A DNA stretch of 64,000 nucleotides from Bryum argenteum (Eukaryota; Streptophyta; Bryopsida; Bryales; Bryaceae). The translations under genes were made by a program, and so were the position numbers. Location of the stretch: positions 27,742,364 through 27,806,363 of the forward strand of contig CM073322.1 of assembly GCA_037043015.1 (NCBI GenBank). The letters are read 5' to 3'. The notes beneath the pieces were generated by a model. That model did not search any database and was not told where the DNA came from. It was given only the letters and a program-made list of their open reading frames with translations. Each line of letters starts with the position of its first letter. The stretch's first letter is position 1. Shown piece by piece: positions 9,949 to 47,226 of this stretch.

Positions 9949-11430
9949 ATGGCACCAAAGAAAGCTAACGGGCCTGAGCAAAAAGAGGAGCATATGGTGG
10001 ACCGCCTCAAAAGTGAACCAAAGAAGTGCCCGGGATGTGGTTCAACAAATGTCAGGTGGAGGTACTTCAACAATCGCAAGTTAGATCAACCTCGTTACGT
10101 TTGCAAGACTTGCTCGAAAATGTTCACTCTTGGTGGAATCACAAGAAATTCTTACATAACCTCAAAGAAGATCAATGAAGGAATTGAAGGAACTCGGGTT
10201 GATGGCGACGGTGGAGTTGGAGGTGCAAAACGGGCAAGTGGTAGGAATCGAACGCAACGCTCTCCTAATAAGAAGAGGCGGTGTTCAGCACCGAAGAAAC
10301 GTAAAGAAGAGTCAGGCTCAGAAGACGACGACGATGAAGAAGAAGAAGAAATTCTAGAGAGGGACCTAGAAGATGGAGACGACGAACCAGAGAATCCAGA
10401 CAGTGAAGAGGATGAAGATGGAGGTAACCAACTCGATGAAGACGACGAAGAGGACGAAGGTGAAGAGGATGGAGAGAATGAAGACGATGAGCACGATGAG
10501 GAACGTGAGGTTGATGAAGATGGAAGTGCCAGGAAGAGGGCGCGTCGATTACCTTCGCGGTGTAATTACAGGAGTGAGAAAAGTTCAATAGATTCAAGCT
10601 CAGAAGAAGATGGGGTAGATGCGATCGAGTCTAGCTCGGAAGATGCAGCCGACACTCCATGGAGTTCAGACGATGAAGAGCCTGCAGCTCATGACGACAA
10701 ATACCACAAGCTTGGAGACGAGAATGGCCACCGTGGAGGCGAATTTTACGAAGGTTGCGATGTCGAGTTTGTAGAAGGAGATGATATGTTTATTTCTTGT
10801 TTGATGGAGGAACAGGCTCATGATGTACAAGAAGTCTTTGATGGTAAAGTCCTTAATAAGGAGGCGTACGAACGTGAAGTATTCTCTATTCACTTCGAAC
10901 CTCTTCGAAACCATATGAAGGCCTTCAAACTCTGTCAGGACAAGATGAAGACCTACCGTTTAGCATTGTTACAGGCTGATGGAGGATGGGATGTGGGAAA
11001 GCGCTCTAAAGGAGCTCTGAAAGAGCGAGCTCTTGATCACTTGGATGATGCTATTGATGCTGCTTGGAAAGCTCATCTCGAGGAATATTTCATGCTGTTG
11101 GATAATACATGTAAGGACCTTGTGGACAAGGCAGTTCATGAGAACAGGCAGATGAATGAGGTCGAAATGTTGTTTCAAAATTTGAGAGAAGAACTCAGGG
11201 AAGTTATCAGTGAGTGGGTTGATATAAGCACCTTCACCACTGATAGATTGGAACGTATGCAAGCTCTTGAATTCCATCTATGGGAGCTGTGGAAAGATGC
11301 AGATAACTTAAGGGAACAAGTAGAGGATGCAGACATAGATAGTGTACGTCACACTCAAATGGTAGAATTTGAGAAGGAAGCAAAGATGCTAGGTGGAGCA
11401 ATTTTGGATGTTGTGCAACGCATGAGTTGA
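9949..11430 (+). CDS. Dof-like zinc-finger protein with acidic stretch and helical C-terminal domain
   Basis: 493 residues from the ATG at 9949. The upstream ATG at 9919 lies before a likely splice acceptor, and the paralogue at 45.9 kb starts at the matching position. Residues 25-66 form a Dof-type finger: C27-x2-C30-x21-C52-x2-C55, with FNN, QPRY and a following GG as in plant Dof factors. A basic cluster (NKKRRCSAPKKRK, 107-119) is a probable nuclear signal. About 120-245 is strongly acidic low complexity. About 300-493 is a charged, predicted helical domain (EYFMLLD, STFTTDRLERM) shared with four other loci here and not recognised. It is probably a nuclear DNA-binding protein; target and role are unknown. 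It differs from canonical Dof proteins in the residues after the finger and in everything C-terminal to it. It is followed 0.9 kb downstream by a decayed copy. Confidence 0.85.
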   Translation: MAPKKANGPEQKEEHMVDRLKSEPKKCPGCGSTNVRWRYFNNRKLDQPRYVCKTCSKMFTLGGITRNSYITSKKINEGIEGTRVDGDGGVGGAKRASGRNRTQRSPNKKRRCSAPKKRKEESGSEDDDDEEEEEILERDLEDGDDEPENPDSEEDEDGGNQLDEDDEEDEGEEDGENEDDEHDEEREVDEDGSARKRARRLPSRCNYRSEKSSIDSSSEEDGVDAIESSSEDAADTPWSSDDEEPAAHDDKYHKLGDENGHRGGEFYEGCDVEFVEGDDMFISCLMEEQAHDVQEVFDGKVLNKEAYEREVFSIHFEPLRNHMKAFKLCQDKMKTYRLALLQADGGWDVGKRSKGALKERALDHLDDAIDAAWKAHLEEYFMLLDNTCKDLVDKAVHENRQMNEVEMLFQNLREELREVISEWVDISTFTTDRLERMQALEFHLWELWKDADNLREQVEDADIDSVRHTQMVEFEKEAKMLGGAILDVVQRMS

Positions 11431-11666
11431 TCCAATTTTGGATGTTGTGAGACGCATGAGTTGATCTTGTTTAGAGCATGATATTTTCATGCAGATGTCT
11501 CTTGTGAGAACTTCCCACTTTTGGATAGGTAGTTTTGTAATGGCACATGTTCGGATTTAGAGTTAGGATGTAGAGTTATTTGAGGTGGTACAAGATGGAG
11601 AGAGCTCTTTGGACTAAGTAAAGGATATCTAGAGAGTTAGTGTGCTTTTTGACATTGTTTATGAAG

Positions 11667-11752
11667 GGCAGAAACTTTGAAGAGTCATAATTCTTTCATC
11701 CGAACTTCGATCTTCTGACAAAATAAATTGGGTTGAGTCCCAAATCAAGTCT
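11667..11752 (-). repeat. Fragment of AT-rich dispersed repeat
   Basis: In reverse complement, GGGACTCAACC, CGGATGAA and CTTCAAAGTTTCTGCC match the phrases at 16.8 kb and 24.7-24.8 kb. It sits in the 3' flank of the intact Dof-like gene. Confidence 0.55.
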
Positions 11753-12306
11753 CCTTGTGCGCTAAATGAGTGCACACAATGTTTGCTATTTTTGCTTTTA
11801 CAGCACTTTTAAATGAAAAAGGGATTTGTGCTTTTGGATCATTAATCCCGCACCTAGCAGGGATCAATGCATGCCTCATTTACACTAATCTCATTTTGCC
11901 ATTTACCATTTAAGTTGAAATAGTGAGTTACCTTCAGCACAAGAATGATCAACAAGTAAATGCTAGAACCACCTTTTATAGTTTATGAGAGTCAAAAGTG
12001 TAATTTTCTTTCAAAACAATAAATATGACATAAGATAATATGATTCTTCACAATAACCCCAATTCCTCTAAATTAACAATTAACTGTAGAGATACTATAT
12101 AACTAGTACATCTTGGATTGCCTCTGCGGACTGAGCAGTAAAGAAGTAAAAAACATACAGGCAACACAATCATTCACCATGTGGATATTAGAAAATCTTG
12201 CTTAAAGTTCATGATTATTCTTAATTTGAATTGATTTCATAGAATTCATACAAATTATACATGAATACACCGACATTAGTAGAAAAATTGTCCATAACGG
12301 ACAAAA
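11753..12306. other. Intergenic between two Dof-like copies
   Basis: AT-rich with no gene seen. A tail sequence after the first gene repeats its last coding bases (TTTTGGATGTTGTG at 11402 and 11435), a short tandem duplication across the stop codon. Confidence 0.5.
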
Positions 12307-14088
12307 GTGTGCAAGCGACCGGGATGTGGGTCAGATGGAGGTACTTCAACAATCGCAGGCGAGATCAACCTCGTTACCTTTGCGAGACCTGCACATAATT
12401 GTTCGCTTGGTGGAAGCATGAGCTCAGGAACTTACAAAACTGAAAATAAAATTAAAAGAGACATAGATTCTCAAAGTGATAACGAAGATAGAGATGGAGT
12501 TGAGAAACGGACAAGTGGTAAGGAGCGAACGCAGCAATTTCCAAATAAGGAGGGGCGGTCTCCCGCAGCGAAGAAACGTAAAGCAGAGTCTAGCTCGGAA
12601 GATGATGAAGTAGAAGAAATGACAGAGAGTGACCCAGAGGATGGAGACGACGAACCACGAACCTCAGAATCCAGACATTGAAGAAGATGATGATGAAAAA
12701 ATTGAAGACGATGACGACGACAAAGTGGATGGATGAAGATGAAGATGGAGAGCATGAAGACGAAGATGGAGGGATGAAAGGTGAAGATGGCGAGGATGGA
12801 AATGAAGATGGAGAGGATGAAGACGAAGATGAAGATGAGGAGGCTGAAGAGCATGAGCACGATGAGCAGGATGAGGATCATGAGGTTGATGAAGATGGAG
12901 TGGCAGGATGAGAGCGCGGCGATTTACAAGCACGATTGGGTTAACACAGCTAAGAAAATTTCACTGAAGTCAAACTGATAAGAAGATGAAGCAGATGGAA
13001 TTGAGTCGAGCTCAGAAGATGAAGCCGACACACCGTGGAGTTCAGACGATGAAGAGCTTGCAGCTCACACTGAGGATAAATGCAACGAGTCTGAAGAAGA
13101 GGATGGACACCGTAAAGATAAAGTTGACGAAGGTGACGATTTCGAGTTTGTCGAAGGAAAAAATATATCCGTTTCAATTCTTTGTTTGATGGAGAATCAG
13201 GCTGATGCTGTCGAAGAAGGCTCTCCTGTCTCATGTGTTACGTTTGGAGGAAGGGGTGACGAAGATCGTGTGGGAACGAGCACTGGAGGAGCTCGTTTGA
13301 AGAAGAGGATTGTCGAACACTTGCATATTTCGGAACATGTTGCTGGCCACAAGGATAAGTATACGTTGTTGGACAATGAACTGCAACAGTCTCAGCAAGC
13401 TAGAGTACAAGAAAACAAGGAACCTTGCGAACGTGAAGTATTCTCCGAGGAGGCGTACTATCGTGACATTTCCTCTGCTAATTTCGTACCTCTTCGGAAT
13501 CGGTTGAAGACCTTTAAGGACTATCAAGACAAGAACAATGCCTGCAAAGACCTTGAAGACGAGATCAAGGCCTACAGAGACTACCGTCGAGCATTGGCAC
13601 AGGCTGATGGAGGATGGGATGTGGGAAAACGCAGCAAAGGAGCGTTGAAAGACAGAGCCCTTATTCACTTGAATGACGCCATTGATGCAGCTTGGAAAAC
13701 TTATCTCCAGGAATATTTCATGTTGTTGGATAAAACATGTAAGAACCTTGTGGACAAGGCAATTCATGAGAACAGGGAGTTGAATGAGGTCGAAATGTCG
13801 TTTCAAAATTTGAGAGAAGAACTCAAGGAACTTATGAGTGAGTGGGTTGATGCGAGCACTTTTACTAGTGACAGATTGGAACGTATGCAAGCTTTTGAAT
13901 TCCATTTATCGGAGGCAATTGAAGATGGAGAGGAGTTAAGGGATCAAGTTTATGACATAGACATAAATAGTGTTTGTCACACTAAAATGGTAGAGTTCGA
14001 GAAGGAAGCGATCAAGTTATCGAGAGCAATTTTGAATGTTGTGAGACTCATGAGTTGGTGTTGCTTAGAGCATGATAATTTCATGTAG
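12307..14088 (+). pseudogene. Decayed Dof-like family copy with an intact C-terminal ORF
   Basis: A second family copy 0.9 kb after the intact gene. The finger starts as CKRPGC, but an internal deletion of about a dozen bases then shifts the frame, so the rest (WRYFNNRRRDQPRY then CETC) is read in another frame. The acidic region is split over at least two further frames (12471-12681, then about 12650-12910). From 13186 a 300-residue frame (ATG at 13186 or 13189) stays open through the whole C-terminal domain, with HLNDAIDAAWKTYL, EYFMLLD and STFTSDRLERMQAFEFHL. It is unlikely to be a DNA-binding protein. The long open 3' part could still be expressed on its own, or decay may simply be recent. 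Confidence 0.8.
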
Positions 14089-14390
14089 ATATCTCTTGTA
14101 ATTCAAATTTGGAAGGTAGTTTTGTAATGGCCCATATTGGTTTAACAAAAGATTGAGAAATATTTAGATGTACAAATTGAGTAAAAGATAGTTCCGTAAT
14201 GACCCATATTGGTTTAACAAAAGATTAAGAAATATGCAGATGTAGAAATTGAGTAAAAGATATTTACAAAGCTATTGTCAAAGATAGTTTTTGTCCATCT
14301 AAAATTATAAAGATTGAAGGAAAATAGAAAGAATTAATGCCTAAAAATATCATTATAATGGGAGGTATTCAATGATGTTGGGAAAATAAA
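14089..14390. repeat. Tandem duplication in 3' flank of decayed copy
   Basis: A phrase of about 70 bases (GTAATGGCCCATATTGGTTT..., AAAAGATTGAGAAATAT, GATGTACAAATTGAG) occurs at about 14124-14185 and again at about 14194-14262, with GACCCATATTGG in the second copy. No gene. Confidence 0.6.
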
Positions 14391-14648
14391 TGTACCCACA
14401 AATTGGATACTTTGCTAAATCTCAACAAACAACTAATTGTCGGTAGTTTTAAATGGCCCTAACTTACTCAATTTGTTTGATTTCAGCATATGAGGTGTTT
14501 TTGGACATATTTACTAGGAAGAGTAGATGTCAGAAAACACCTCATATGCCTAATTTGGACAAAACTTGAATAAGTCATGACAATTTGAAAATGCGTGACA
14601 ATTGTTTGTTTTGTTCACTTTCAGTGAAGTACCCAATCTGTAGGTACA
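14391..14648. mobile_element. Fold-back MITE
   Basis: The left arm starts TGTACCCACAAATTGGATAC. The right arm read in reverse complement starts TGTACCTACAGATTGGGTAC. The pairing continues inward through ACAATTGTC-like, GACTTATTCAA-like and CATATGAGGTGTTTT segments. The whole 258 bases is therefore an imperfect hairpin with a small loop. It is non-coding; both ends abut AT-rich sequence and no target duplication stands out. Confidence 0.75.
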
Positions 14649-16049
14649 ATTTAGCTTTAGCATGACTCAAACTCAAGTGTCATTGAATTGATAATTGGAA
14701 TATTTCCATCATAACAAAGTAAGTGTTTAGATAGTTTTAGACATTATGAGACATGTTAGTTGATATTGGTTAAATCATTAAAATTTCATTTAGATACCTC
14801 TTCTAAAAACTTTTCAACTTAGTCTCTAAAGGTATTCTACTAACAACTTTTTTTTGTTGGAACATACTTAGAATTCAATAATAAATTTGTCAAGTATCTT
14901 CAAGGCACTAGTAACTGGGCTAGAAACTAGCATAATAGTGTAGTTATAGTGTCCTCGAGAGGGGGAAGTAGTACTGTTCTAATTCCCCCGTGTCCGGTGG
15001 CCATCGGAATATTAGCATTACGAACGGACACTTCATTCACGTCGGTCCCTTAGAAAGGACCGGAGTTTCTATCTATCTATCTGGTATTAAATTTCTTTTG
15101 CACATATAGTAACAATAGCTTTGTTTTGCGTTTATTTCAAATCTTCAATTTGTTTGGCTATTTTTTCTTTGGCTTCGGTTTGTTGGACCAGCATGGCCCA
15201 TTGAGATTGCAATGAAATGAATACAACTCCTACAATTAACAAAAGCGAAATTAAATTTAGCGTGTTTATTCAGAGTGCAAACAATAGAGATGCTCTTGTT
15301 CATTATTAATGTGTTTTTTTTCTTAAACTAATATATCACTTTATATCATTTGCGCAATGATACATATTATGATTTTCCATACTCATATTTTACTAAGAAA
15401 ATTAAAACCAACTATAAGTTTATACAATTGTATGTATAAAAGTCCAATCACCTTTTTTGACCATGTGATATAACAAAAATGGGCATGTGGCAAGTTAGGA
15501 TTGATGACATATGATTTGATGAAATTTTGTAACTTCTTATTATCTACTATGAAAATTAGGTTGAATATAATGACAAACAAATTAAGAACCTATACACATG
15601 ATAAGTCTTAGCATATTCCATATGTTACTAAAGAATACTAAACAAGTTGGCAAAATCTCACGAGTAAAAACATAATTCTCTTGTGTCTCCTACACATGGC
15701 TTTTAAATGTATCTGACAAGTTACTGTGTGAGTAACTAAGTTTAAGTTAGTTAGAAGTTATGGAAGCATAGCAAAAGTTGAAATCAATAGGAGGTGCATG
15801 GAGATTTATGATGTAACTAACATATATTATAATCTATAATCTTAGTTTTTGAAAAAGAGTATCTAATACGTAGACAAAGTTGGTACACAAGTCTTCTCAA
15901 TTATTTTTTATATATAGGAGACTTAAGACACTTAACCTTTATATGTCCATGGGGTATTTTTAGCCATTTTTATTTTATATATATGGTTTTTAATGTCAGA
16001 CATGGAAATGTAAGATTGAAATAAAGAAAATTTGATAAGAACTATACAA
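14649..16049. other. Intergenic, no gene seen
   Basis: AT-rich. A GC-richer patch at about 14950-15070 holds CCGTGTCCGGTGGCC, ACGGACACTTC and a (CTAT)n-like run, resembling debris of an inverted-repeat element. No ORF with recognisable content. Confidence 0.45.
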
Positions 16050-26065: not shown

Positions 26066-27304
26066 ATGCTCAGTTTTGGATCGATGGCAACTTCCATAGC
26101 TGTAATCTCGAACACCAGGTTGGTTGGTTCGGGTCAATCCATTCATGGGTACTCGACGACGGTTCGGCGATATGGCTGCAGAGATTGCAGGTTGATGGGA
26201 GGGTTGAAGGTAGTGGCCGTGCAGACATCGCCGACTTCAGAGTCGACGGGGTCCAGGAATCCTAGGTCACCGCGGAATACGAAAGGTTGGATCGACGAAC
26301 GGGGTAACCAGAATGAGCGTCTAATAGCGCAGATGCACAACATCGCGGTCGCGGCGCGCGACCGCGCGGAGCTCCACACCATCATCGGGACGCAACGGGA
26401 CAACTGGAACAAGCTCTGTCACACCACGGTGGTGAGCACCACAGTGGCGGCCTCGGTCCTGGCAGCGCTCAGCGGGGCCACTCCCGCGGTGCCTCTCTCA
26501 CTCACTGCTTTCCTGCTCAATTTGGGGACGTTCGGGCTCATGGTATTAGCAGGAAAGCTCCAGCCCAGTCAGTTAGCGGAGGAGCAACGATCCGCAGCGC
26601 GACAGTGCAGAAGCGTGGCTGGGGAGATCGAAGCCACATTGCAAATCGATCCTTCGCTCAGAGAAGACGCGGAGCTTTACATCGAGGACAAGCTGGCCAG
26701 GCTGCACGACGTCGATGTCGCATACCCGCTCCCGCTTACCCCGGACGGGCTACCCAAGTTCCCGGCTGTGGTCCAAGGCTCGGTACTGAGCCCACCAGTG
26801 GATCTAGCGGAGCCGGAGGTGACAGCGACGGACGCGAACGGATGGAGCGCGGCCATCAGCGAGGATCTGAAACAAACCGCACAGAAGCTACGCGAGGCGG
26901 ACATCCAGATCTACTTAGGCTGGGCGCGGAAGAAAGAGAGAGAGAGCCTGCGCCTGGCCATCGGGGCTCCAGTGCTGGTGGCCATGGCGGCACTGCTAAA
27001 TCTGGTGCAATGCGGTTCCAGAGTGCCGATGACGTCGAGCGCGGCGGCGGTGTGCAGCGTGGCGGCAATGTTCTGTTTCAGTTTCGCGCAAGGTGGGCAA
27101 ATCGGAATGATCTTCGAGATGTACCGCAACTGCGCGGGCTCATATGCAGATTTGGAGAATAGCATCCAGAGAGCCATCCGCACTCCCGTGTGGCAACGTG
27201 AAGACGGCGAGCTTTTCCACGAGAAGATTGCGTTGCAGTTGGGGCGCCAGAATCTGGTCCCGCTCGTTCGTCCTGGCGACAAAACTGCTGGCAAGGTGTT
27301 CTGA
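26066..27304 (+). CDS. At4g22030-like ('probable F-box') protein, likely plastid-targeted
   Basis: An intronless, GC-rich gene of 412 residues, or 406 if the second ATG (26084, MATSIAVIS) is used. The N-terminus is rich in S, T, R and G and poor in acids, as in chloroplast transit peptides. The body (about 95-395) carries the family's landmarks as I recall them: RAELHTIIGTQRDNWNKL, then a hydrophobic stretch of about 45 residues, and a second hydrophobic stretch (APVLVAMAALLNLV) after a charged helix (KKERESLRLAIG). The 'F-box' label is a database name; I see no F-box motif here, and the length is short for a version with one. It is a plausible membrane-associated plastid protein of unknown activity. 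It is the only single-copy GC-rich gene between 20 and 39 kb. Confidence 0.65.
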   Translation: MLSFGSMATSIAVISNTRLVGSGQSIHGYSTTVRRYGCRDCRLMGGLKVVAVQTSPTSESTGSRNPRSPRNTKGWIDERGNQNERLIAQMHNIAVAARDRAELHTIIGTQRDNWNKLCHTTVVSTTVAASVLAALSGATPAVPLSLTAFLLNLGTFGLMVLAGKLQPSQLAEEQRSAARQCRSVAGEIEATLQIDPSLREDAELYIEDKLARLHDVDVAYPLPLTPDGLPKFPAVVQGSVLSPPVDLAEPEVTATDANGWSAAISEDLKQTAQKLREADIQIYLGWARKKERESLRLAIGAPVLVAMAALLNLVQCGSRVPMTSSAAAVCSVAAMFCFSFAQGGQIGMIFEMYRNCAGSYADLENSIQRAIRTPVWQREDGELFHEKIALQLGRQNLVPLVRPGDKTAGKVF

Positions 27305-29016: not shown

Positions 29017-32000
29017 TCATAAACACTTGACAAGTTGTCCCATCCAAGTACTTGATGAAAAAAATTCCTCCGCATATTTCCATAATTCCTCTGGAAAACG
29101 ATTCTGCAACTTAAAAGCATTAGGAAGTGGATCCATCACTGTGATTTTTGCTTTATCAATGCCTCCTGATCTTTTGTTTAGTATCTTCGGCGACCAACTA
29201 TTTTTCCTACTAACACCTTCTTTTGCAAATCCATCAGGAATAAAATTTGATTCATGATTAAAGTCAAGACTCCTACTCAATCTTGAACAAATTGCATCTG
29301 ATGATGTCACTTTGGAATGGAATATTGTACCACAACAAGTCAAATCTCCAAGTTGTCTTGTACCCCTTGGAGTTGAAGGACTAGCAGCAAACATATCAAG
29401 TTTTTCTTTAGCCATCATAGTTTTTGAAGGACTAAATAATGCCTTCGGTAGGGATATTTTTTTCAAAGACTCATGATTATCAGAGTAATTGTCACCATCA
29501 TTCTTTGGTTTTTTTACATTATACATCATTGTTTTTCCTGACAAATTTTTTGATTCTTTTTCATTTTTTGAAACATCACTTGAATCTAAAGAACTGAACA
29601 AGCCGCACTTTGAGCTTTTCAAGAAAGTGAGTAATATCTCCATACACAATTGTTGTTGTACTATATCACGATTGGTTTCACTTCCATAACAAATTGCTAG
29701 TAAAGTGCCTATTAGAATTGGAGTCAACTTGGAATCGCTGAAGAAAACAAATGGAAGATTGCACATCTAAGCACAATACAAAACTATAGCATTATAATTA
29801 TGAAATGATTATCAATAGGTAATTAGGTACTGGAACTTCAATATTTAGAATAAATATAGAAAAGTTATTTAAATAGAAAATGACACCGTTTAAGATTTAC
29901 AAATAATAGTATCTAATAGTCATTGAACATTTCACAAATACCTACCTTTTGAAGTATAGTGGGATGTTTTCCCCATCGTAACAAGGCTTGATTTTCAAGG
30001 TGTAATATGGCAGCGTATCCTATTAGCATCATTGTTTCTAACATTAATGAAGCCACCTGCAGTATAGAAATTTCTTTATTAGGATATGCGTATCTCTTGT
30101 TTGATAGTGAAACAAAGAGATTCTAATTGGAAATGTCTTGCAATGATGTATCTTTTGATGGGAAAGTCCTTAATTTATCAAAGTTTTATTTAAGTGGAAA
30201 AAGAAATTTTAGCACCTCATCAACACTTGATTTCCAATTACTTGTACAATATGTTACAAGAAAACTCATAAGTTGATAGAACTCAAGGCATACATCTGGT
30301 AATGCCTGTTACACAATTGTTAGGGATCATCAAAGTGTTATGATCTAACATGCTAATATAGCTTATAGTCTCTATATATAAAGAACATAGTCGGTGTGTG
30401 TCTCTGTCTCTGGGATCCATGGTTATGGTCATCATTATTTGGTCATGTATGCACGGCATAAAATGTTCTAAAGAGTTTGAAGAGTTTCAGTAAGTGATAT
30501 TTCATTGATATTATGAGTAAATAAATTCAAATAATATAACAAGGACACAAGGAGACGAGGTGACAAGGTATGATAAACATGAGAATAGAAATGAAGAATG
30601 AGTGAATGGGAGAACGAGAGAACATGGATAGGGAACCAAGATTAAGGAACAACATACGGGAATTGGAAACCAAGATTAAGGAACAACATACGGGAATTGG
30701 AAACCAAGAACAAGGAAACGAAGGATTGGGAACCAGGAATGAGAGAGGAGAGGACGAGAAACGGGAAACAATGGAACATAAAACAAAGAACCGGAAAAGT
30801 GGAAACACAGGAACTAGGAACTGGGAACCAGGAACGAGGGATAGGAACTAGGAACGGAAGATGGGAACGGGGAACAAATGATAGAAACCAAGACGGGGAG
30901 TTGGGGGACAGGGAACTTTGAACAAAGGAGGGGAACCAAGAACAAAAGATGGGAACTAGAAATGAGAGGTTGGAAATGGGCAATCGTGAAGTAGTAAACA
31001 GAGAATGAAGAACCAAGAACGTAAGATAGGAAAAATCGGGAACGTGGAAACAAATGACATGCAATAAATCTCAAAAAGGGGGCGGCACCATTAACGAGGG
31101 AACAAAAGACAACCGGAGAGGTGATAATTTTTGAAGAACATCAAATAAACAGCTCATTCATCAAAAGGAGGGGGACCTTACTCAAAAATTATTCAATTTA
31201 TTTTATTTTTATTTTTATCTTTTTCCAGTATATGTTAGTTACATTATAACAAATTATAATGTATACAAGAACTCCTCCCAAATTCAATCTAAGAGCTTAA
31301 GATAAAAAAAATTTATGGTACTAAATTTTGATAATGCATTCTAGTAAGTCATGACCAAAGATTGCTAATAATACAAAGTGAAGATATATAACATGTGTGT
31401 CAATGAGTGTTGAATTGATTATCTCTTTCAAGAATGGTCAAAGAATATACCAATTTACTTTGGACAAGATTGAGATCGATCCTTGCAATGTTGTTGAGTA
31501 CTTGTAGCAATATTATTGCTACTTCATTGAAATTTGATGGTAACACATCAATTTCCTACATGGATTGTTTACAAGATTTTAGTTGTTTGGAACATATTTA
31601 TTCCAATAAAATAAGCAAGAATATATAAATGACATCATATCTTTTTTGAAATTATCAAAAAATATATACTTGTGGAATAATGTGACCATCTCTCTATTTT
31701 CAAGTAGGATTGTAATTGTATACTTTTACTTGCAATCATTTGTGTCCATGCAATTTGATCAACAACAATTGTTAAAAGTATTTAAACATTAGAATAAAAT
31801 AAAAACATGTATATATATCTTCAAATAATTACTTTAATATGTAATATTTACTTCTTCCTTAGATGATGGATCGACTTGTAGTATAATTCCAATTAAAAGA
31901 GAAGGAAGTCCAACTAGGGTTGTTTCGGAGAGAGCAGCAATCAAAAATGTTGTTGATTCAGTAAGTGTAGAATTTTTTTGAGTTATTACAATACGTGGGA

Positions 32001-35000
32001 TTTTTTCACTATGTTTGTTAACGTCTTTGTTTTGTTTTTGAGCAATATCTTCACTATGATCGATATCTTTATTTGATAATGCAAAAATTCCATCCTTAGT
32101 AAAAACCTCTTTTTTAATATTAGCTTGATTTTGCTCCAAATATGATTTGTGTACAATTATGCTGATAGGTTCTTCATGAGCTACTTTAAGAGATTTCCTT
32201 TTTGACCCTGTTAAGGCTTCTAACAATTTGAGACAAAGAACAATGGAATTTTCAATAGGAGCTTGATTGCCTTGTTGCCAATGATATACAACAAAAAAAT
32301 GTTGCAATTGGTGTATAAGTCCACTAGCAACAAGCAAATCAACCAAATCATCCTGCATACTTGCTTGATTTTCATCAATGCATGTGTGCTCAATAATAGG
32401 TATAGTAGAATTTAATAATCCTTCTAAAATTTCTTGTAGGATGGTCAATTCTTTAGTTTTTTTTATTTGATCATCATTAGGTTCATTTACTTCTTCATGT
32501 GATGAGGAGCTTTTGGACTCTTGGTAAAAGTCACCAAAAGAACTAAATATTTCCAAACTTGACAAAAGCATAGGTATAAAAGGGGGGAACAAGTTACGAA
32601 CTATGAAATAACTTCGATTTGCTGGAAGATATAAAAGTGTATTTTGAATCTGCAATAGAATCATAGTAGTAAGTGGATCTTGACGCAAAGGAATGGACGT
32701 GGCCGTGTAGTCAAGAAGGCCTATCTGGCGAGCAACATGTAGCTCAGCTTGTTTACCTTCCAAACCCTGAAAAATAATTCTCATAGTGAAATTTTTATCT
32801 ATTACAAAGTTAAACATAGATTCAACTTCAAATTTTTTAGTACTAGAAATGATCATTCCCAAGAAATCATATTAATTTCAAATTAGAGAAATTGTGTCAT
32901 CATATGTATGATTATTGATAGTAAAGAGTAGTTTAGCAAAAAGATAGCATATTACTTTGGCTATTTCTTTTATGATTGGAGTTGTATCTGTTGTGTCTTT
33001 CATGGATTGTATATGTCGAAGTTCATCCATCCACTTGTTCATTTTAGCCTTTGCCAAACCTACAACATTTACAAATATAAAGAATTAATTGGAACAATAA
33101 ACTTGTCAATGATAATATCAACCAATCTCAATTTCATGTATTTGAAATTTTCCTTCACTCACTAAAACGAGAGAGATTAAAGAAAGATAATCAACAGTAT
33201 GTAACTATTTTCTCAAATTAAAGTATATGAATACCTGTAGTAGTAGATGATCCAATTCCAACACCTTCTACTCCTATGGGAGGTTCTAAAAATTCAACCT
33301 TCTTATTTGCTAACTTGGTTTTAAAACTTTTTACTTTTTTCTTTATAGCTTGAGTTTGAAAATAGTTGATGCTTTTGAGTTGCCCAAACATATTGTTCAC
33401 ATTATCAGAAAGACCATTCTTCTCACCAACAAAATTTTGATTCAAACAACCATCTATATTCCAAAAGTTCACACAAAATTTACTATATGTACATGGTACA
33501 TTGTTTCCTTCACTAATTAATGTAACACGGCCCTTGATTTCATCAAGACAAGCTAAACGCCTTTCTTCACCTTGTTTTAGTCTTTTTGCTAATCGTTCTT
33601 CAACGTTACTAATCTCACTTTTGTGAACGTTAGTTTTGGTTGTCTTAGGTTGAGCATGTCCTACTCTACTTCTACTCACTTTTTCATTAGTGAATATAAA
33701 CTCTTTCTTGTCTTGATTTTTAAAGAGTGATCTATCATTATTATTATCTTGACCTACTTTTGGGTCAATGGATAATTTGTTCTTTGGTAAAGCTTGATAG
33801 TTTTCTCCATACAACATTTTTTTGGAAAAAACTTCTATTGAAGCATTGGTCATTCCAATTGGGTTCAAGTTTTGAGCACTTTGAGACTTTTCAAGACCGT
33901 GATACCTTGGTGTACCTCTTCTAGGTGTTGCAAGTACATCTAACAAACTTGTCTTATGCTTCAAATCTAAACTACTACACTTGGTTGTCAAACTCCAAGT
34001 TTTGTGTTTCTCTTTGTGTTTTTCTTTTTCATTCTTTTTTATTTTTAGATTGTTTGCGGTACGTATATTGCTTGACTCTGTAGGTCTCATTAGCCGACCA
34101 GTGAAAGTATTGTGAATAACCTTTTTGTTTGTTTTGCAGTTTTCTGGTTCATCAATTTTGAAATTTACCATTTTTTGTCGTTCTTCATCGACTCGGTAGC
34201 CAATCACAGAGGCAGCTCGATTCCGCGTACTCATAAGAAATTCTTTGTCTTCCTTAGCATCATGAAATGTTTCCGAAGTTCTTCCTATTATCAAAAATAC
34301 GTCCTTGGTATTATACTTAATGCCTTCTATAGGAATAGAATTATAGAGTATCTTGATAAGAATTTAAGTAAAATATGTATATAGATAAGTATTGTATCAG
34401 ATGAACTTAGAAATTAAATAAAAGAACCTCACCATTATGGATATAAGATTGAAGATCCATTTGTGGCATAGGAGTTGGTGATGGTTCATTGAAATTAATA
34501 ATCATTCCAATTTTGCTATCTGTATTGTTGTCACCTAGTTGAGATTTTGGACGGGGTGGTCGACTAAACACCTAATAGTTTCAAAAAATTGAGTTATATT
34601 AACATGTTTTGATACATCTGACTATTGTTGTCATAAAGAGAATGAAGAACATTTTACTTATTATGATGTAGTGATCCTAATTACTCAATTGTGCACAAAG
34701 TATACAAATTTATTATGTCCTCAAAAACAATAATGACTGTGATTGTACTTTTTTTTCACACAATTAATGACATAAATGTTATAAAATAAACACACATAGG
34801 AAAAAGAATATGTAAAATCACCTCTCGAGGCAACATCTGATAGTTATTTCTATTAGTGTGAGCAACCTTAGGTGTGACGTTAGTGTTAGTAGTAGGAATA
34901 TATGATTCTTTGAGACTTTCAATTTTTTCCTTATCTATTAAGGCCTCAGCAGTTTCTTCTTTGGAACTTTTAGTTTGACGATCTAATGTATTGATTTCAA

Positions 35001-37585
35001 TGGGAACCTTTATTTCACCCTCTTCAACTTTGAGATTGTCATTTTTTATAGTTATACTTTCACTCTCTTCAACCTTGAGATTGTCCTTTTTTATATATAT
35101 AATTCCACTCTCTTCGACTTTGACATCGTCCTTTTTTATATTTATGCTTTCACTCTCTTCAATTGTGGAATGATTTGCTTTATCAATTATAACATTTTGC
35201 TTCAAATTTACTCTACCGTTGTTTTTCAACTCACTGGTGCCTTTTTCAAGATCACTTTCGTTAATTTTTTTAGGAAATTTAGTATCGCATTTATTCTCCT
35301 CTATTTTACATGGAAAGTTTATCAATTGTGTTTCTGAAATTAACTCCTGAATTTGTATGATATCTTTTTGATTTTCAGCTTTTTCACTGACAACATTTGG
35401 CACATGGTTCCTCTCTATAGATTTAAGTTTAATGCTTTCTACTTCTTGCCAATTTCTAGATTCTTCTTGGAAAAAATCATTCTTCATAGTGAGCTTTATA
35501 ATATCCAATTTCTTCTCACTTTCTTTTTTATTAAAACTAGATTCACTACTATCTGCACCATGACTAAAAGAATTGTCTTTTACATCCACTTGTGAAACGT
35601 TATTACACGATTTTAGCTCCTTAAAATCTTGGCAAGCTTCTTCCAAAAATAAAATTGCTTCTTCTATCTTTTCTGGAGTACCCTGGAGATCGCATAGAAA
35701 ATATAGTTTATCAACTGCTTGACTAAGGTTTTCAAATAAGAAACACCATAGTCTCTCACGAAACCATTCCTTACAATCTCCTGTAAAAGAAAAAGGTGTT
35801 AATTTTTTTAAACAGAACAAGTCCATGTTAATGTGTATCTTGCAATGTAGTTATGAGTTATGACTTAACCTTTGAACTTTTGGAAAAACCAAATTGATTT
35901 TTGAGAGTGTTAGTAAGCTTCCTCTCACTCCATTCAAAATACTATAATCTCATAATAATAATAAAAAAACTAATTGTTCAATTGAAACGTGAGTAATGGA
36001 TTAAGTCAACTCACATGTCCTACCGTTGGATTTATAAAAAAAAATCAATCAAGCTTGATAAAGCTCAAAATTGTAAAGGGTGAATCTTGAAAATGATAGC
36101 AAGTTTGCAATAAGATAAAAAGGAGTTATATAAGGTTATATTTGTAAACCAGTAGTATATAAAATGATTCCCATATTCTAGTTTGTTTATCTTAATTAAT
36201 AACAATTTTATCAAGTGTGATAACGTTTGAGATAATATGAATAATATTTTTTGAAAAGAGTTCTTTTATTAATCTATGATTCAACAACATTCTCAAATAG
36301 AAATAGTTTAGAATTAATCAATAGAACCTCTTTCAACTTAAGAAATAAAATAACATGAAACAAACTCACTGTCATTAGGCTCTATTACCAATCCATCACT
36401 TTTACTTTTTAAAGCTTCATTGTTTATATTGTTTTGCAATTCGTCACCATCTTTAATCAAACATTGTTTTCGAACATCGAAGTTTGGTGAGGAACTTCCT
36501 TGAGGATGTTTTGGTGAAAATGACAACTTAAATTTGTCATCATTTCTATGAGGTATACTGTCATAGATATCATGTTTTAGTTTTAAAGCACTTTTAGGTC
36601 CTACTTTACCACTTCCTAGTGATAGTGTTGTTTGCATTGTACACTCTTCCATAGCACCATCCAAAGGTTCGGAGACATAGTAATTCTCGTTCATGTTTTT
36701 GACAAGGTTATTAGAAGTTGGTACCAGATTATTTCTTTGTATTTGAAAAATGGGTTTCATATTCAATTTTAATTGAGGTTCAATTTTAATTTGTGAGGAA
36801 TTTTTTGTAACTTTAGAAACACTTATAGATTCATTAATGTCACGTGATTTGGATGTAATGGTCACCTTTGGCAAAGGAAACTCAATAGCAGGAACTTGTC
36901 TTGATGTTTGAAATTTCATCTCTTTTTGGAATATTAGACATTCTTGTGGATTTAACCTTGAAGTTAATGCAGGAATTGTCATATCTATTATTTGATCAAT
37001 TATATTATTATCTAGAATTTTCCTTGGTGTAGTGGATTTTGAATTGTGTTGAGAACTATTTTTTGTGCTACTTCTAGGACTTGATTTTGGACTCACATCT
37101 TTGGAACTTGCTAAAAGAGCAAGTCCACTTAATCCAGGAACTTCCTCCTCCAACTCCAACTGACTTGTTTTTTTACTTTCTTCATTATTGGTCTCATTCT
37201 CATCCATCCTTCGAGGTGATAAACTATATAGATCTAGTAATCCATCTTGAATTTGAGTACCTTTTTCCAACGTTCCTTGAGATGATTGATCTGAATGTTC
37301 ATCAACTTCATTACTCTGGTCATAAATTTGTAAGCAATATGTTTCTATAGTAGAATCAAGAAGTGGTGAGAATTTGTAACAATCCAACAACCCTACTTCT
37401 ACTTGAGTTCCTTCTTCAATAGGTTCCATATCTTCAACATGCCCAATTTCACAATCTTCTTCGTTTTGCCATGTATTTTTTGCCATGTCTGTACTTGTTG
37501 CAGCAAAAATCAAGGTTTTTCGCCGTTCTTCAGCACTTCTTAGATGCAATTTTTCAAGGTTATTAGGTAGAGGATATGATACCAT
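29017..37585 (-). CDS. SCAPER: SCAPER homologue, ten coding exons
   Basis: Exons (minus): 37585-36370, 35780-34822, 34571-34433, 34284-33235, 33059-32956, 32766-31852, 31555-31451, 30305-30216, 30056-29946, 29766-29017. All borders are GT-AG and every phase joins, giving about 1812 residues. Family: S-phase cyclin A-associated protein in the ER. Exon 2 starts with the N-terminal SCAPER helical motif (WFRERLWCFLFENLSQAVD, LYFLCDL, FLEEACQDFKELK). The exon 4/5 join gives EFLEPPIG, GIG and AKMNKWMDEL. Exons 6-10 give VARQIGLLDY, LPANRSYF, LPSLL, VLPSNFNEVA, LMSFLV, NQALLRWGK and LPFVFFSD, all in family order. Odd points: the AT-rich codon use, a first exon I cannot align, and no long charged coiled coil of the kind plant homologues carry before EFLEPP. 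Intron 7 holds a minisatellite repeat. An additional 5' exon is possible. Confidence 0.9.
30390..31210 (-). repeat. Minisatellite-bearing dispersed repeat inside an intron
   Basis: Lies within intron 7 of the SCAPER-like gene (31450-30306). In reverse complement it matches the two copies at 290-1475: head (GAGTAAGGTCCCCCTC, TTTGATGTTCTTCAAAAA), GGGAAC-rich unit array, and tail (TTCAAACTCTTTAGAAC, CATACATGACCA). A 34-base unit (AACCAAGATTAAGGAACAAC...) is duplicated exactly at about 30650-30715. Confidence 0.7.
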
Positions 37586-39692: not shown

Positions 39693-40349
39693 TTAAGCCG
39701 CAGGAGCGAAGCCCATCTTGATCTTGTCTGCCTCCATCGGCGAGATGCCGAAAGCCTTGGCCAAAATCTCTGTCTTGATGGGCGGGGTCGATCCGAACAA
39801 TGCCGAAGGCAGCAGCTGCACACCCGGGTTCTGCGCGTTCAGCACCGACACCGTCTCGCTGTGCCCGTTGCCCAAGCTCAGCTGGAAGTGCACCAATCCC
39901 TGGGGGAACAAGAAGAAGTCGCCCTTCTTGATCGTCACGGCGTACAACTTGCCCGCAGTGTCCACGAATCCAACGTACACCTCGCCCTTCACCACAGTGA
40001 TCACCTCCGACGCCCTGGCGTGGGTGTGAGGGGGCACCAATCCTCCCTTGGCGTAGTTGAACTTGGCCAACGCGAAGCTCTGCGTGTTCAGGGCCGGGTA
40101 GTTCACACCTGCGAACCCGGGGATGATGCCGATGCCCAGAGGGTTGTTGGTGTCGGCATTAGCGCGGAAACCTCGGAATGCGAAGTCCTCGTCCACCACA
40201 GCGGAGGTAGCCTTGCAGGCGAGTCCGTTGATCATGAGCATGCTCTTGAGGTCAGCGACACAGAAGTCGTTGATGGGAGGGGCGTCAGTTGCAGACACCA
40301 CAGCCACCAACAGGGCAGCTGCCACGAACGCCAACATGAGCTTGGCCAT
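39693..40349 (-). CDS. Germin-like protein (secreted cupin), copy 1
   Basis: An intronless gene of 218 residues. Residues 1-20 (MAKLMLAFVAAALLVAVVSA) are a signal peptide, so the product should be apoplastic. The paired cysteines of the germin N-terminus are present (DFCVAD ... GLACKA). Cupin motif 1 reads GGLVPPHTHARASEV...VVKGEVYVG, supplying two histidines and a glutamate; motif 2 reads KGDFFLFPQGLVHFQ, supplying the third histidine. The Mn-binding set is therefore complete. Family activities include oxalate oxidase and superoxide dismutase; which applies here is not determinable. It differs from copy 2 at about 8 positions and ends GFAPAA rather than GFQPAA. It is transcribed divergently from copy 2, 2.4 kb away. 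Confidence 0.92.
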   Translation of the reverse strand: MAKLMLAFVAAALLVAVVSATDAPPINDFCVADLKSMLMINGLACKATSAVVDEDFAFRGFRANADTNNPLGIGIIPGFAGVNYPALNTQSFALAKFNYAKGGLVPPHTHARASEVITVVKGEVYVGFVDTAGKLYAVTIKKGDFFLFPQGLVHFQLSLGNGHSETVSVLNAQNPGVQLLPSALFGSTPPIKTEILAKAFGISPMEADKIKMGFAPAA

Positions 40350-42660: not shown

Positions 42661-42766
42661 CGCCGAGCGATTCTCTGCTTTTCATCAGTCGTCTGATCAT
42701 CTCCTCTGCTTCACATCCCTCTCCCTTCAACTGCTCCTCTCGTCAACGTTGATTCCAGTTCTCGCG

Positions 42767-43423
42767 ATGGCCAAGCTCATGTTGGCGTTCGTGGCAGCTG
42801 CCCTGTTGGTGGCTGTGGTGTCTGCAACTGACGCCCCTCCCATCAACGACTTCTGTGTCGCTGACCTCAAGAGCATGCTCATGATCAACGGACTCGCCTG
42901 CAAGGCTACCTCCGCTGTGGTGGACGAGGACTTCGCATTCAGAGGTTTCCGCGCTGATGCCGACACCAACAACCCTCTGGGCATCGGCATCATCCCCGGG
43001 TTCGCAGGAGTGAACTACCCGGCCCTGAACACGCAGAGCTTCGCATTGGCCAAGTTCAACTACGCCAAGGGAGGATTGGTGCCCCCTCACATCCACGCCA
43101 GGGCAGGGGAGGTGATCACTGTGGTGAAGGGCGAGGTGTACGTCGGATTCGTGGACACTGCGGGCAAGCTGTACGCCGTGACGATCAAGAAGGGCGACTT
43201 CTTCTTGTTCCCCCAGGGATTGGTGCACTTCCAGCTGAACGTGGGCAGCGGGCAGAGCGAGACGGTGTCGGTGCTGAACTCGCAGAACCCGGGTGTGCAG
43301 CTGCTGCCTTCGGCATTGTTCGGATCGACCCCGCCCATCAAGACGGAGATTTTGGCCAAGGCTTTCGGCATCTCGCCGATGGAGGCAGACAAGATCAAGA
43401 TGGGCTTCCAGCCCGCAGCTTAA
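42767..43423 (+). CDS. Germin-like protein (secreted cupin), copy 2
   Basis: Intronless, 218 residues. The frame is open upstream to 42617, but the TATA box at 42653 and alignment to the four paralogues fix the start at MAKLMLAF. Signal peptide 1-20, N-terminal cysteine pair, cupin motif 1 as PPHIHARAGEV and motif 2 as LVHFQLNVG; all four metal ligands (H, H, E, H) are kept. It is the most distinct of the five: HIH for HTH, GEV for SEV, and NVGSGQSE for SLGNGHSE. The 3' flank resembles that of copy 5 for about 450 bases, which shows the duplicated unit included downstream DNA. Confidence 0.92.
   Translation: MAKLMLAFVAAALLVAVVSATDAPPINDFCVADLKSMLMINGLACKATSAVVDEDFAFRGFRADADTNNPLGIGIIPGFAGVNYPALNTQSFALAKFNYAKGGLVPPHIHARAGEVITVVKGEVYVGFVDTAGKLYAVTIKKGDFFLFPQGLVHFQLNVGSGQSETVSVLNSQNPGVQLLPSALFGSTPPIKTEILAKAFGISPMEADKIKMGFQPAA

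Positions 43424-44591: not shown

Positions 44592-44593
<2 letters not shown>

Positions 44594-44631
<38 letters not shown>
44594..44631. repeat. (TA)n microsatellite
   Basis: About 19 uninterrupted TA units. Confidence 0.95.
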
Positions 44632-44633
<2 letters not shown>

Positions 44634-45894
44634 GGACCCTAAAATCTCTACATGGGTGTTGCTTGGTTCCATTACTTCCATATACATGTACATCTTTAGA
44701 TCTTATTGAGTGTAGGGTTTATTGAATATTGCAAAACACAATAGAATTGAAATTTTAAAGAGAAGATTTGGTTCAAACATGACATTGTTGTGAAGTACAT
44801 AAGTGAGATATTGGTGCGTACTTGATTCAAACAAACATGTGCCATTACAAAAATACTCTTCCAAAGTTGAAGAGTTCCCACAAGTAAATTTACACAAAAT
44901 TATACTCAATGTTATAATTGAGAGTTGAGATCAACCCATGCATCTCATAAGCTCTAAAATTGCTCGGCCTATCTTCCTATCTTCCTTCTTGACCTTCCAA
45001 CATAATCCTTTTCAATTTCAAATGTGACGACTACTATGAACACATTTTGTGTCGACATCTCCTGTTAATGCTTGTTCTCACAAGTACATGTTGATGAAAG
45101 AAAACAAGACTAGGGCACAAATCCTTACAAAGAATTGTAAAATGTTTGGTTGCCATTAGCAGAGCCAAAGCGAGATAAGCTTGGTGAAGTAATCTAATGC
45201 TCTAGTACACCCTCCCTCTTTAAAGTGGCACACCGAGGTGATAAGGTTGAGGGTGATAGCCTCCACCTTGGAATGACATCAATCCACTACTTAGCGACAA
45301 GAAGCAAAAAAGATGAAAACGGTAATTCAACATGTAAGTAAACATATATTTTAGATTTTATTCCACATAAATCGCATGCCTCTTGATCTTAGGCCTCGTG
45401 TGGCAGGGAATCGCGTTTGTGATAATAAGATCTACGCACCCTTGGTGATGAATAAAGAAAAACCCTTAATGTACAAAGTTGCGAATCAATTTGACAACAT
45501 AAAGATAAAGAAAAAATAGAAAGTAAGAAAATTCCAAATCACAGGGAACACAGCATGGAAAGGCTCTACCCTCTCCCCACCTTTTATTCATATTGCATGC
45601 CTTCTCCTAAACCAACTATGAAACCCTAAAACAACCGTCTAATCGCACCAAAATCTTATTGGAATCGAGCAATGCAAAAAACAAACAAAAGCTCCATTGC
45701 ATAGCCCTGACCTTCATTGAGATCAAGCTATACAAAAGAGACAGATCTTCAAGCAAGTGGTGAAATTCACAATGCCGCAACAACATCGGCGCCTCCAACC
45801 GAACCTTCAATCGACTCCTCCCTCCTCCTATCCACATCTCCTCTTATGGTCCCAAAAACTCGTACACACCATCCTTCACCTCCACCTTCATTGA
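44632..45894. other. Intergenic, no gene seen
   Basis: AT-rich, downstream of the minus-strand Dof-like gene. No credible coding content. Confidence 0.45.
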
Positions 45895-47226
45895 TCAACC
45901 AATTCGTTTCACAATATCGGAAACTTCTTTAGCCAGCTTCCGAGCTTCCTTCTCAATCCTTTCTATTTCACTGTGACGAACACCATGATCACCATCTGTT
46001 GCATCTATATCGATTACGTGATCCCAAAACCTCGATACATCTTCTTTCGCCTTTTCTAAATCGCTTTCAAAAGCCACTGCACGATCATATCTATCACTGG
46101 TAAAAGTGCTCGCATCACCCCAACCACCCACAAACTCCTTGATGTCGTTTCTTAACTTGTATCTCACTATTTCAGACTCCGACATCTCCCTGTTTTCTTC
46201 TGTTATCCGTCCCTCATACTCCTTCCAATACTTATCCATCATCATCAAATGTGCCTCGAATTGCATCTTGTTACAAGCAACTAGAGCACCATCCAAGTGA
46301 TTAAGAGCTTTTTGTTTTAACGCCCCTTTCTTGCGTCCCACATGTCCTCCTCTAGCAAGCTCCTTTGCCAATGTCAGTCGGTGGTCCATGTATACTTTGT
46401 ATTGCCTCATCTCCTCTCGAAGAGCTCTATCATATTCAATGTAGTCTTGTTCATACGCCTCCCTATCTTGCACTGACAGTTGTCGTACCTTCTCGACATG
46501 TGAGTGGTCAATAGCTTTCTTCGTCAACGCTCTTCCAGTGCTTGTTCCCTCCTCATCTTCATCAACACGTGCTTTTCCCTTTCTTCTAGCTGATTCGGAC
46601 AGACCATCAAAGCGTTCCTCCACATCCTCTTCATCTGCATGTTCTCCATCGTCTAAACCCCATGGTATGTCATCTTCATCTTCTGAACTCGACTCTGGGG
46701 AATATTTCTTCGCTGCTTTAGACCGCCCCCTCTTGCTTTCAAGTCGCCACGCTCTCATTCGGCCACTTCCACCTTCAACTTCATCATCTTCGTCTTCCGT
46801 ATCTTCGTCTTCTTCCGTATCTTCGTCTTCACGATCTTCGTCTCCAGGATCTTTGTCTTCACGATCTTCGTCTTCAGGATTCTCGTCTTCAGAATCTTCA
46901 TCTTTACCCACATCCGTAATTGGAAGTTGCATTGTTCGCCTCTTCCCAACCCCATCTTCGTCACTCTCAGTCTCTTCATCTTCTTTAATCTTCTTTTCAG
47001 TTTTATTCTTCTTGTAACATCCTCGGATTCCACCAAGCGTGAAATACCTTTTGCAATCCTCGCAACGATAACGAGGTTGATCGAACGCGTAATTGTTGAA
47101 GAACTTAAACACGATGTTTGTTGAATTACATCCCTCTCGCGCACACTTCCTTGCTAAAGCTTTGAGGTTGTCGGCCATGTCCTCCTCTCTATGAGGCTGC
47201 CCTCTGAGTTTCTTCTTTCGTGCCAT
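45895..47226 (-). CDS. Dof-like zinc-finger protein, second intact paralogue
   Basis: 443 residues from the ATG at 47226, which lies just after an acceptor-like TTTAG and the leader GAATCAAC, as in the paralogue at 9949. The finger is at about 26-70 with C28-x4-C33-x21-C55-x2-C58; FNNY, DQPRY, CKRYFTLGG are close to the Dof consensus, but the first cysteine pair is spaced by four, not two, residues. The decayed copy at 12.3 kb shares this CX4C. An acidic stretch with E-D-x repeats follows (about 105-155), then an SSSEDED patch, then the helical C-terminal domain (about 245-443: ALKQKALNHLDGAL, STFTSDRYDRAVAFESDL, HSEIERIEKEARKL). It is likely nuclear. It lacks introns in the coding part. Its function is unknown, and it is not part of the 3-14 kb cluster. 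Confidence 0.85.
   Translation of the reverse strand: MARKKKLRGQPHREEDMADNLKALARKCAREGCNSTNIVFKFFNNYAFDQPRYRCEDCKRYFTLGGIRGCYKKNKTEKKIKEDEETESDEDGVGKRRTMQLPITDVGKDEDSEDENPEDEDREDKDPGDEDREDEDTEEDEDTEDEDDEVEGGSGRMRAWRLESKRGRSKAAKKYSPESSSEDEDDIPWGLDDGEHADEEDVEERFDGLSESARRKGKARVDEDEEGTSTGRALTKKAIDHSHVEKVRQLSVQDREAYEQDYIEYDRALREEMRQYKVYMDHRLTLAKELARGGHVGRKKGALKQKALNHLDGALVACNKMQFEAHLMMMDKYWKEYEGRITEENREMSESEIVRYKLRNDIKEFVGGWGDASTFTSDRYDRAVAFESDLEKAKEDVSRFWDHVIDIDATDGDHGVRHSEIERIEKEARKLAKEVSDIVKRIG

Follow-up and report, generated by a model that had tools for sequence, protein, structure and literature searches.

Two intact genes in a 64,000-nt stretch of the Bryum argenteum genome (GCA_037043015.1, contig CM073322.1, positions 27,742,364-27,806,363, forward strand; referred to here as the window) encode proteins that combine a Dof zinc finger with a helical C-terminal domain, the two connected by an acidic linker. 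Both open reading frames, designated A and B, are uninterrupted at the positions proposed by the sequence-only reading, and the order of parts it had described (finger, basic patch, acidic stretch, C-terminal domain) was seen in both. That reading had not given the strand of B, which is the minus strand; the plus strand is full of stops there. Gene A has a further in-frame ATG upstream, at 9919, which would result in an alternative protein of 503 aa; the start at 9949 is favored, as homology with B sets in 6 bases ahead of that codon. When A was used as the query in tblastn, B (E 1.2e-36) and three broken copies, C (7.5e-65), E (2.4e-20), and D (5e-16), were retrieved; the likeness is therefore beyond chance.

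9949..11430, plus strand: gene A, intact single-exon open reading frame, 493 aa
45895..47226, minus strand: gene B, intact single-exon open reading frame, 443 aa
10027..10113, plus strand: Dof zinc finger of A, residues 27-55, CX2C-X21-CX2C (Pfam PF02701, E 8.9e-15)
47053..47145, minus strand: Dof finger of B, residues 28-58, variant CX4C-X21-CX2C (PF02701, E 5e-12)
10219..10305, plus strand: basic patch of A with NLS-like KKRRCSAPKKRK, at about residues 91-119 (identified by its charge profile and an NLS-like pattern)
10309..10488, plus strand: acidic tract of A, with D or E at 40 of the 60 positions in residues 121-180
10522..10557, plus strand: conserved basic linker motif of the type GSGRMRxRRL, A copy
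46770-46735, minus strand (B); 22714-22679, minus strand (D); 12896-12931, plus strand (C): other copies of the GSGRMRxRRL-type motif
10630..10662, plus strand: conserved tryptophan-containing acidic motif of the linker, of the type SSSEDxxDTPW, in A
13006-13038, plus strand: SSSEDxxDTPW-type motif, C copy
46692-46660, minus strand: the same motif type in B, with IPW
22610-22581, minus strand: the same motif type in D, as SSGDEDETPW
10846..11427, plus strand: C-terminal helical domain of A, residues 300-493, without significant Pfam or PDB match
45898..46530, minus strand: C-terminal domain of B, the stretch folded with AlphaFold2

A Dof finger joined to an acidic linker

The assignment of the finger to the Dof type held: in the Pfam scan, PF02701 was passed in two of two intact proteins with 55 (A) and 46.2 bits (B), well over the cut-off of 26.6, and none of the other listed zinc-ribbon families reached its own cut-off. 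By profile, the fingers of A and B are thus Dof fingers. That of A aligns to the Dof factor CDF1 (chain 8xuf_C, E 5.4e-07), the NN, QPR, and GG positions being common to CDF1 and the A and B fingers, and both fingers retain the cysteines, FNN, DQPRY, and FTLGGI. The cysteine spacing in A is the one given for Dof fingers in a passage of PMC7076670, which also describes the finger as highly conserved. In B, the first pair is spaced CX4C, and both fingers carry F in place of the W of YWT in CDF1, behind the last cysteine pair. Judging from these two changes, A and B may have altered or lost DNA binding or its specificity. Dof transcription factors bind DNA with an AAAG core.

With Dof factors, A and B share a single Cys4 finger near the N-terminus, but they add to it the helical C-terminal domain and, between the two, a long acidic linker carrying two conserved motifs. 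Ordinary Dof proteins are not known to have such a C-terminal domain. The linker of B is acidic as well (33 of 60 residues in 91-150). Its basic motif and its DTPW-type motif were each present in four of the four copies retaining that region (A, B, C, and D). Linker sequence absent from A is present elsewhere, namely EDEEGTSTGRALTKK in B, EDRVGTSTGGARLKK in C, and EDRVGTRPRRPLKR in D. D/E runs beside basic patches resemble the acidic tracts of histone-binding or chaperone-type proteins; in contrast to those, A and B matched no chaperone-family profile among the Pfam matches listed.

The relevant passages of a 2024 survey (PMC10842470), in which bryophyte Dof genes form one old lineage or stay ungrouped and functional studies are called for, hold no description of the A/B architecture; this picture leaves room for a branch like A and B. 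In a literature search covering open-licence PMC papers, no title or abstract opening dealt with this architecture, and the strings STFTSDR, EYFMLLD, STFTTDR, GKRSKGALK, and YFNNRKLDQPRY were not found; given that coverage, the lack of a match does not make the architecture unpublished.

The C-terminal domain

The C-terminal region is ∼200 residues long in both proteins. Structure prediction with AlphaFold2, which had been proposed as a check on this domain, yielded a helical model of moderate confidence for A residues 287-493 (pLDDT 71.4, pTM 0.63; 34 of 207 residues below pLDDT 50) and for B (pLDDT 74.7, pTM 0.68), the five models per protein spanning 50.4-71.4 for A and 43.0-74.7 for B. Helices were predicted at about 18-57, 63-111, 118-134, 145-174, and 182-206 in A, and, in the same order, at about 23-60, 66-111, 118-135, 145-153/155-173, and 186-210 in B. 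The two models suggest a similar helical layout with moderate confidence, the predictions differing in the first sequence and having the same five sequences in both inputs. Of the two motifs by which the domain had been characterized, EYFMLLD reads AHLMMMD in B; STFT(S/T)DR is found in A, B, and C by alignment and is altered in E (STFSRDK) and D (ISFTYDT).

The domain had been called unrecognised, and so it stayed, irrespective of whether sequence or fold was compared. No Pfam family reached the cut-off over the C-terminal part of whole A, B, or C; when the five members of the alignment, D and E included, were searched singly, the best E-value was 0.012, the first member reaching no cut-off. 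A sequence search of solved structures (PDB) with the C-terminal domain returned no significant match. With Foldseek, the A model gave 470 PDB matches at E<=10 and 0 at E<=0.001, and the B model 318 and 0; viral structures searched with the A model gave 398 and 0. The top PDB matches (best 50 of each Foldseek list) were mostly long helices with low TM-scores, from axonemal proteins, designed proteins, and the like, and were not considered relatives. HEPN_Swt1, which accounts for the E-value of 0.012, was weak and confined to one of five members; SlyX and CENPH (Pfam) and DOB1 (PDB) were weak and not common to the copies; UvsY (E 0.056) was matched by B only. All were rejected. Scans of bacterial and archaeal contigs with one short peptide pattern, and of viral contigs with two, confirmed no relative, which speaks solely against close relatives there.

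Conservation, decay, and the broken copies

The claim of stronger conservation for the domain was contradicted by the A-B comparison, in which identity was 56% over the finger (residues 13-65) and 39% over the domain. Its survival in relics had been taken to mark it as the functional core. This did not hold either, as D and E are truncated at the 5′ end and the finger of C is broken by frameshifts, so that the 3′ end is the part such copies retain; where both parts exist, the finger is better conserved. All three further loci reported to carry the domain were found, and a fourth relic retains just its 3′ end. The window thus holds six copies of the family in 64 kb, two intact and four broken. 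The relics and short tail copies listed with nhmmer were detected with models built from the window's own copies.

12242..14142, plus strand: copy C, frameshifts and stops in finger and linker, domain frame open
13189..14088, plus strand: fingerless 299-aa open reading frame of C; TGG in place of the TGA stop of A, B, and E adds 10 residues
21667..22796, minus strand: copy D, a fingerless relic with several frameshifts and stops
3188..3697, plus strand: copy E, 5′-truncated relic beginning at the equivalent of A residue 353, one in-frame TAG
44829..45084, minus strand: downstream of B, relic covering the 3′ end of the domain with adjoining 3′ flank (two nhmmer models, E 5.5e-17 and 7.2e-24)
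11433..11551, plus strand: short duplicate spanning the 3′ end of the domain and its 3′ flank, immediately behind the stop of A (nhmmer, alignment)
11573-11643 and 14733-14804: further short tail copies (nhmmer)

Over residues 1-65 plus the domain (251 codons), dN/dS (omega) between A and B was 1.15, with a profile-likelihood range of 0.8-1.8, although dN may be inflated by alignment error at 39% identity; the linker was left out because its acidic tracts align unreliably. The finger alone gave an omega near 1 (range 0.7-4, 52 codons), which sets it apart from ordinary Dof fingers. Germin-like paralogues of the window, five pairs tested of 10 possible, ranged from 0.04 to 0.27, these control pairs being much younger than A-B (dS 0.08-0.18). 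Omega was lower in other pairs of the family (B-C 0.75, A-E 0.60, A-C 0.57, and B-E 0.42), indicating purifying selection during part of its history. Simulated neutral change at 0.25 substitutions per site put a mean of 12.1 stops into A and 11.2 into B and left no stop-free copy among 1000 for either gene, whereas the real genes have none. An omega of about 1 combined with open frames points to relaxed or diversifying selection on the sequence while the frame is retained. This combination, the two linker motifs, and the fingerless frame of C go beyond the sequence-only reading.

Proposed role and alternatives

We consider A and B to be Dof-derived nuclear DNA-binding paralogues with an unclassified protein-contact domain, subject to local birth and death (probability roughly 0.6). 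The finger would hold the protein on DNA, the basic patches would serve as nuclear localisation signals, and the SSSEDxxDTPW motif with the adjoining acidic tract would recruit transcription or chromatin factors. The C-terminal helical domain would contact proteins, probably pairing family copies or binding a partner. The family would expand and die locally via tandem duplication, truncation, and insertion, A and B being its living members, in which amino acid change about equals silent change and the reading frame is maintained. A Dof branch with an unclassified helical domain and a finger evolving at an omega of about 1 would suit the study of a plant transcription-factor family turning into something new.

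Whether C is itself a working partner, that is, a stand-alone domain modulating A-like proteins through pairing, is doubtful, though the idea deserves tentative consideration. Its frame is open over 299 codons, and in the finger region A-C mismatches are spread evenly over the three codon positions (0.315, 0.245, and 0.288), but in the domain they are fewer at position 2 (0.232, 0.134, and 0.227). When B served as the outgroup in a codon model of three branches, omega of the C branch was 0.36, and fixing it at 1 cost a 2dlnL of 5.4. With E as the outgroup, however, the cost was 3.3, and with D (77 codons) it was 0.1, with a C-branch omega of 0.75. Among neutral runs, a domain-length frame survived in a fraction of 0.004 at 0.25 substitutions per site, but in 0.1 at 0.1 substitutions per site, so that chance survival of the frame after a recent break is possible. 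The lost stop, with its 10 added residues, also counts against a partner function.

An unlikely account is that the family is losing its function, with A and B as mostly redundant members, the omega near 1 reflecting relaxed constraint and the relics showing its future. Four broken copies of six and the linker sequence missing from A would fit such a decaying lineage; against it, unconstrained sequence of equal divergence would average 11-12 stops per gene, and the zinc ligands, the finger core, and the linker motifs are retained. An origin as cargo or accessory frames of a transposable element, the finger serving the element, is highly improbable: the window does hold many copies and fragments, and three of the six copies have a repeat, R, on their 5′ side (directly at E, ∼1 kb from D, and ∼1.5 kb from B), but A and B have no detectable common 5′ flank in the 2 kb compared and share at their 3′ side a tail relic, in the A and C stretches compared, likeness occurs in patches that reach no farther than ∼110 bp upstream and ∼120 bp downstream, as tandem duplication leaves, R also occurs with no family member behind it (53926-54384 and a fragment at 63659-63798), the R copy at 2533-3190, stops masked, matches no Pfam family, and the Pfam scan of A and B gave no transposase domain.

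Within the preferred reading of A and B as DNA-binding paralogues, KRAB-type and other fast-evolving animal zinc-finger families come to mind, as a parallel in mode and not in homology, for their local birth-and-death clusters with strongly divergent intact members; the fingers of A and B are unrelated to theirs and number one each, and positive selection and a target are conjecture here. An arms race, in which positive selection drove Dof fingers with a new pairing domain to diversify against moving DNA targets (mobile elements, for example) and fingerless copies were retained as modulators, would be a long shot. If true, the family would be a plant counterpart, by convergence, of the fast-evolving zinc-finger repressor families of animals.

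The window also holds a Plant_U3 snoRNA (RF01847, E 3e-23) and a PF14476 "Petal formation-expressed" protein (Pfam), a family that we take to be confined to plants; together they indirectly indicate a green-lineage genome, as expected of Dof.

Architecture of the family

Two open reading frames encoding Dof-like proteins, genes A and B, were found intact and uninterrupted at the positions claimed for them in the sequence-only reading. B lies on the minus strand, which had not been stated; the plus strand at this position is interrupted by stops. Three further loci had been reported to carry the C-terminal domain, and these correspond to copies C, D, and E; a fourth is a 3′-end relic. The relic and several short tail copies were retrieved with models made from the window's own family copies.

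Family members in the window
9949-11430, plus strand: gene A, intact ORF, 493 aa
45895-47226, minus strand: gene B, intact ORF, 443 aa
12242-14142, plus strand: copy C, directly after A
22796-21667, minus strand: copy D, without finger, several breaks
3188-3697, plus strand: copy E, beginning at the position that matches A residue 353, one in-frame TAG
45084-44829, minus strand: 3′-end relic (family-model search)
11433-11551, 11573-11643, 14733-14804: short tail copies (family-model search)

For A, an additional in-frame ATG is present at 9919; because the homologous DNA of the two genes starts 6 bases ahead of 9949 and 47226, these two positions are the likely starts. Both proteins show the order of parts proposed earlier. 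A leader of ∼25 residues precedes the Cys4 finger; behind the finger come a basic patch and then an acidic stretch (D/E at 40 of 60 residues in A 121-180 and at 33 of 60 in B 91-150), and the last ∼200 residues make up the C-terminal region. The finger does belong to Dof: its score against Pfam PF02701 was 55 bits for A and 46.2 for B (cut-off 26.6), and among the Pfam matches listed no other zinc-ribbon model reached its own cut-off for either finger. Its sole significant match to a solved structure was the 8xuf chain named CDF1 (E 5.4e-07 for A, 3e-06 for B), which has WT where both A and B have FT. The cysteine spacing is CX2C-X21-CX2C in A and CX4C-X21-CX2C in B. The linker between finger and domain is, judged by comparison of the copies, more than low complexity, with two conserved motifs: an SSSEDxxDTPW-type motif in all four copies retaining the region (DTPW in A and C, DIPW in B, ETPW in D), and a basic GSGRMRxRRL-type motif, likewise kept in A, B, C, and D.

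The 5′ end of E abuts, at about its truncation point, the dispersed repeat R. This AT-rich element of ∼0.4-0.7 kb lies 5′ of E, D, and B (copies at 2533-3200 (+), 24228-23718 (−), 49337-48694 (−), and 53926-54384 (+), and a fragment at 63798-63659 (−)); behind two occurrences no family member was found. With stops masked, the copy at 2533-3190 matched no Pfam family. Gene end and 3′ flank are duplicated repeatedly behind intact or half-intact copies (11433-11551, 14733-14804, 45084-44829), as if unequal exchange frequently breaks at the 3′ end. Two self-reverse-complement stretches, 55139-55441 (75%) and 14388-14651 (71%, just after C), are perhaps foldback elements.

The C-terminal domain

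The description of the domain (residues 300-493 in A) as unrecognised held. When A, B, and C were scanned whole, no Pfam model reached its cut-off over the C-terminal part; when each sequence of the five-member domain alignment was scanned singly, the best E was 0.012, with cut-offs compared for the first member only. Against PDB sequences, the best match of the alignment profile had an E of 0.094, and B as single query gave one weak match, UvsY (E 0.056). AlphaFold2, run on an alignment of just five sequences, predicted the same order of helices for A and B (a poorly predicted start, a helix of ∼40 residues, another of 46-49, and three further helices), but as both runs shared this alignment, the predictions are not independent. 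The pLDDT was 71.4 for A (pTM 0.63; 50.4-71.4 over five models) and 74.7 for B (pTM 0.68; 43.0-74.7). With neither model did Foldseek find a match at E≤0.001. The domain is thus unrecognised in the libraries searched, the quality of the predicted models being insufficient for a claim of a new fold.

Conservation and selection

The domain had been regarded, from its survival in relics, as the more conserved part and possibly the functional core. Between A and B, however, it is 39% identical, versus 56% for the finger (residues 13-65). D and E retain the domain because their 5′ ends were lost, and the argument from relics therefore fails.

Pairwise dN/dS (omega) was estimated with our own script under a maximum-likelihood codon model (F3x4). 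For A-B, omega was 1.53 in the finger (range 0.7-4, 52 codons) and 1.05 in the domain (0.7-1.8, 187 codons); residues 1-65 and the domain taken together gave 1.15 (0.8-1.8, 251 codons). Other pairs gave lower values (B-C 0.75, A-E 0.60, A-C 0.57, B-E 0.42); A-D gave 0.92 on 77 codons. Germin-like paralogues served as control, 5 of 10 possible pairs yielding 0.04-0.27; being far younger than A-B (dS 0.08-0.18), they test the method and are not matched in age.

Germin-like genes, 218 aa each
39693-40349, minus strand
42767-43423, plus strand
57260-57916, plus strand
59203-59859, plus strand
62208-62864, plus strand

Neutral change was simulated without indels or base bias. At 0.25 substitutions per site, which is roughly half of the silent divergence between A and B, a mean of 12.1 (A) and 11.2 (B) stops arose and 0 of 1000 runs each remained stop-free; at 0.1 per site, the stop-free share was 0.004 (A) and 0.003 (B). 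The absence of stop-free neutral copies at 0.25 per site indicates that selection probably held both frames through most of their divergence, while residues changed nearly freely. As no omega in the family comparisons was significantly >1, positive selection is considered only possible.

In C, the finger region contains frameshifts and stops, and the domain frame is open over 299 codons, with TGG at the position of the TGA stop of A, B, and E. A three-branch codon model with B as outgroup gave omega 0.36 for C, 0.75 for A, and 1.15 for B; fixing the C branch at 1 cost 5.4 in 2dlnL (3.3 with E as outgroup, 0.1 with D on 77 codons). In agreement with this, A-C mismatches in the broken finger region fall about equally on the three codon positions; in the domain, position 2 has fewer of them. 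These patterns weakly hint that the domain alone was maintained in C after the finger broke.

Proposed role, distribution, and neighbouring genes

The family is a real and clearly observed new Dof variant, whose domain is unclassified and whose intact copies have diverged unusually strongly. Its architecture, its membership by profile, and its pattern of evolution are shown, whereas the role is inferred: A and B are most likely nuclear DNA-binding regulators in which the Dof finger would anchor the protein to DNA, basic patches would serve nuclear import, the acidic tract with the DTPW motif might contact proteins of transcription or chromatin, and pairing could be mediated by the helical domain.

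Pattern matches in bacterial and archaeal contigs (71) and in viral contigs (152) included none confirmed by tblastn. A 2024 survey, which covered 82 species and 2124 Dof homologues, describes bryophyte Dof genes that stay outside its groups and some moss genes that encode two or more Dof domains. Near its Group 10 it also reports a set of highly divergent Dof genes, for which it considers an origin under positive selection possible; its section 5 does not mention a C-terminal domain of the A/B kind (PMC10842470). A search of open-licence papers found nothing closer to this architecture. Members of the family may well be annotated merely as Dof in moss proteomes.

The germin-like proteins are 92-100% identical, those at 57260 and 59203 having the same sequence, and both copies scanned (two of five) matched Cupin_1 (PF00190). 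At 26066-27304 (+), an intact ORF encodes a protein that matches PF14476 ('Petal formation-expressed'; E 9.6e-75); together with the plant U3 snoRNA described below, it supports a plant origin of the DNA. Several long minus-strand ORFs at 29017-37585 may belong, as exons, to a single large SCAPER-like gene; one of them (34756-35826) matches SCAPER_N (E 7.2e-11). A plant U3 snoRNA (5947-6170, +) adjoins a U5 spliceosomal RNA (5108-5219, −), and 6672-6763, which over 92 bases shares 83% identity with 5095-5186, may be a second U5-like stretch.
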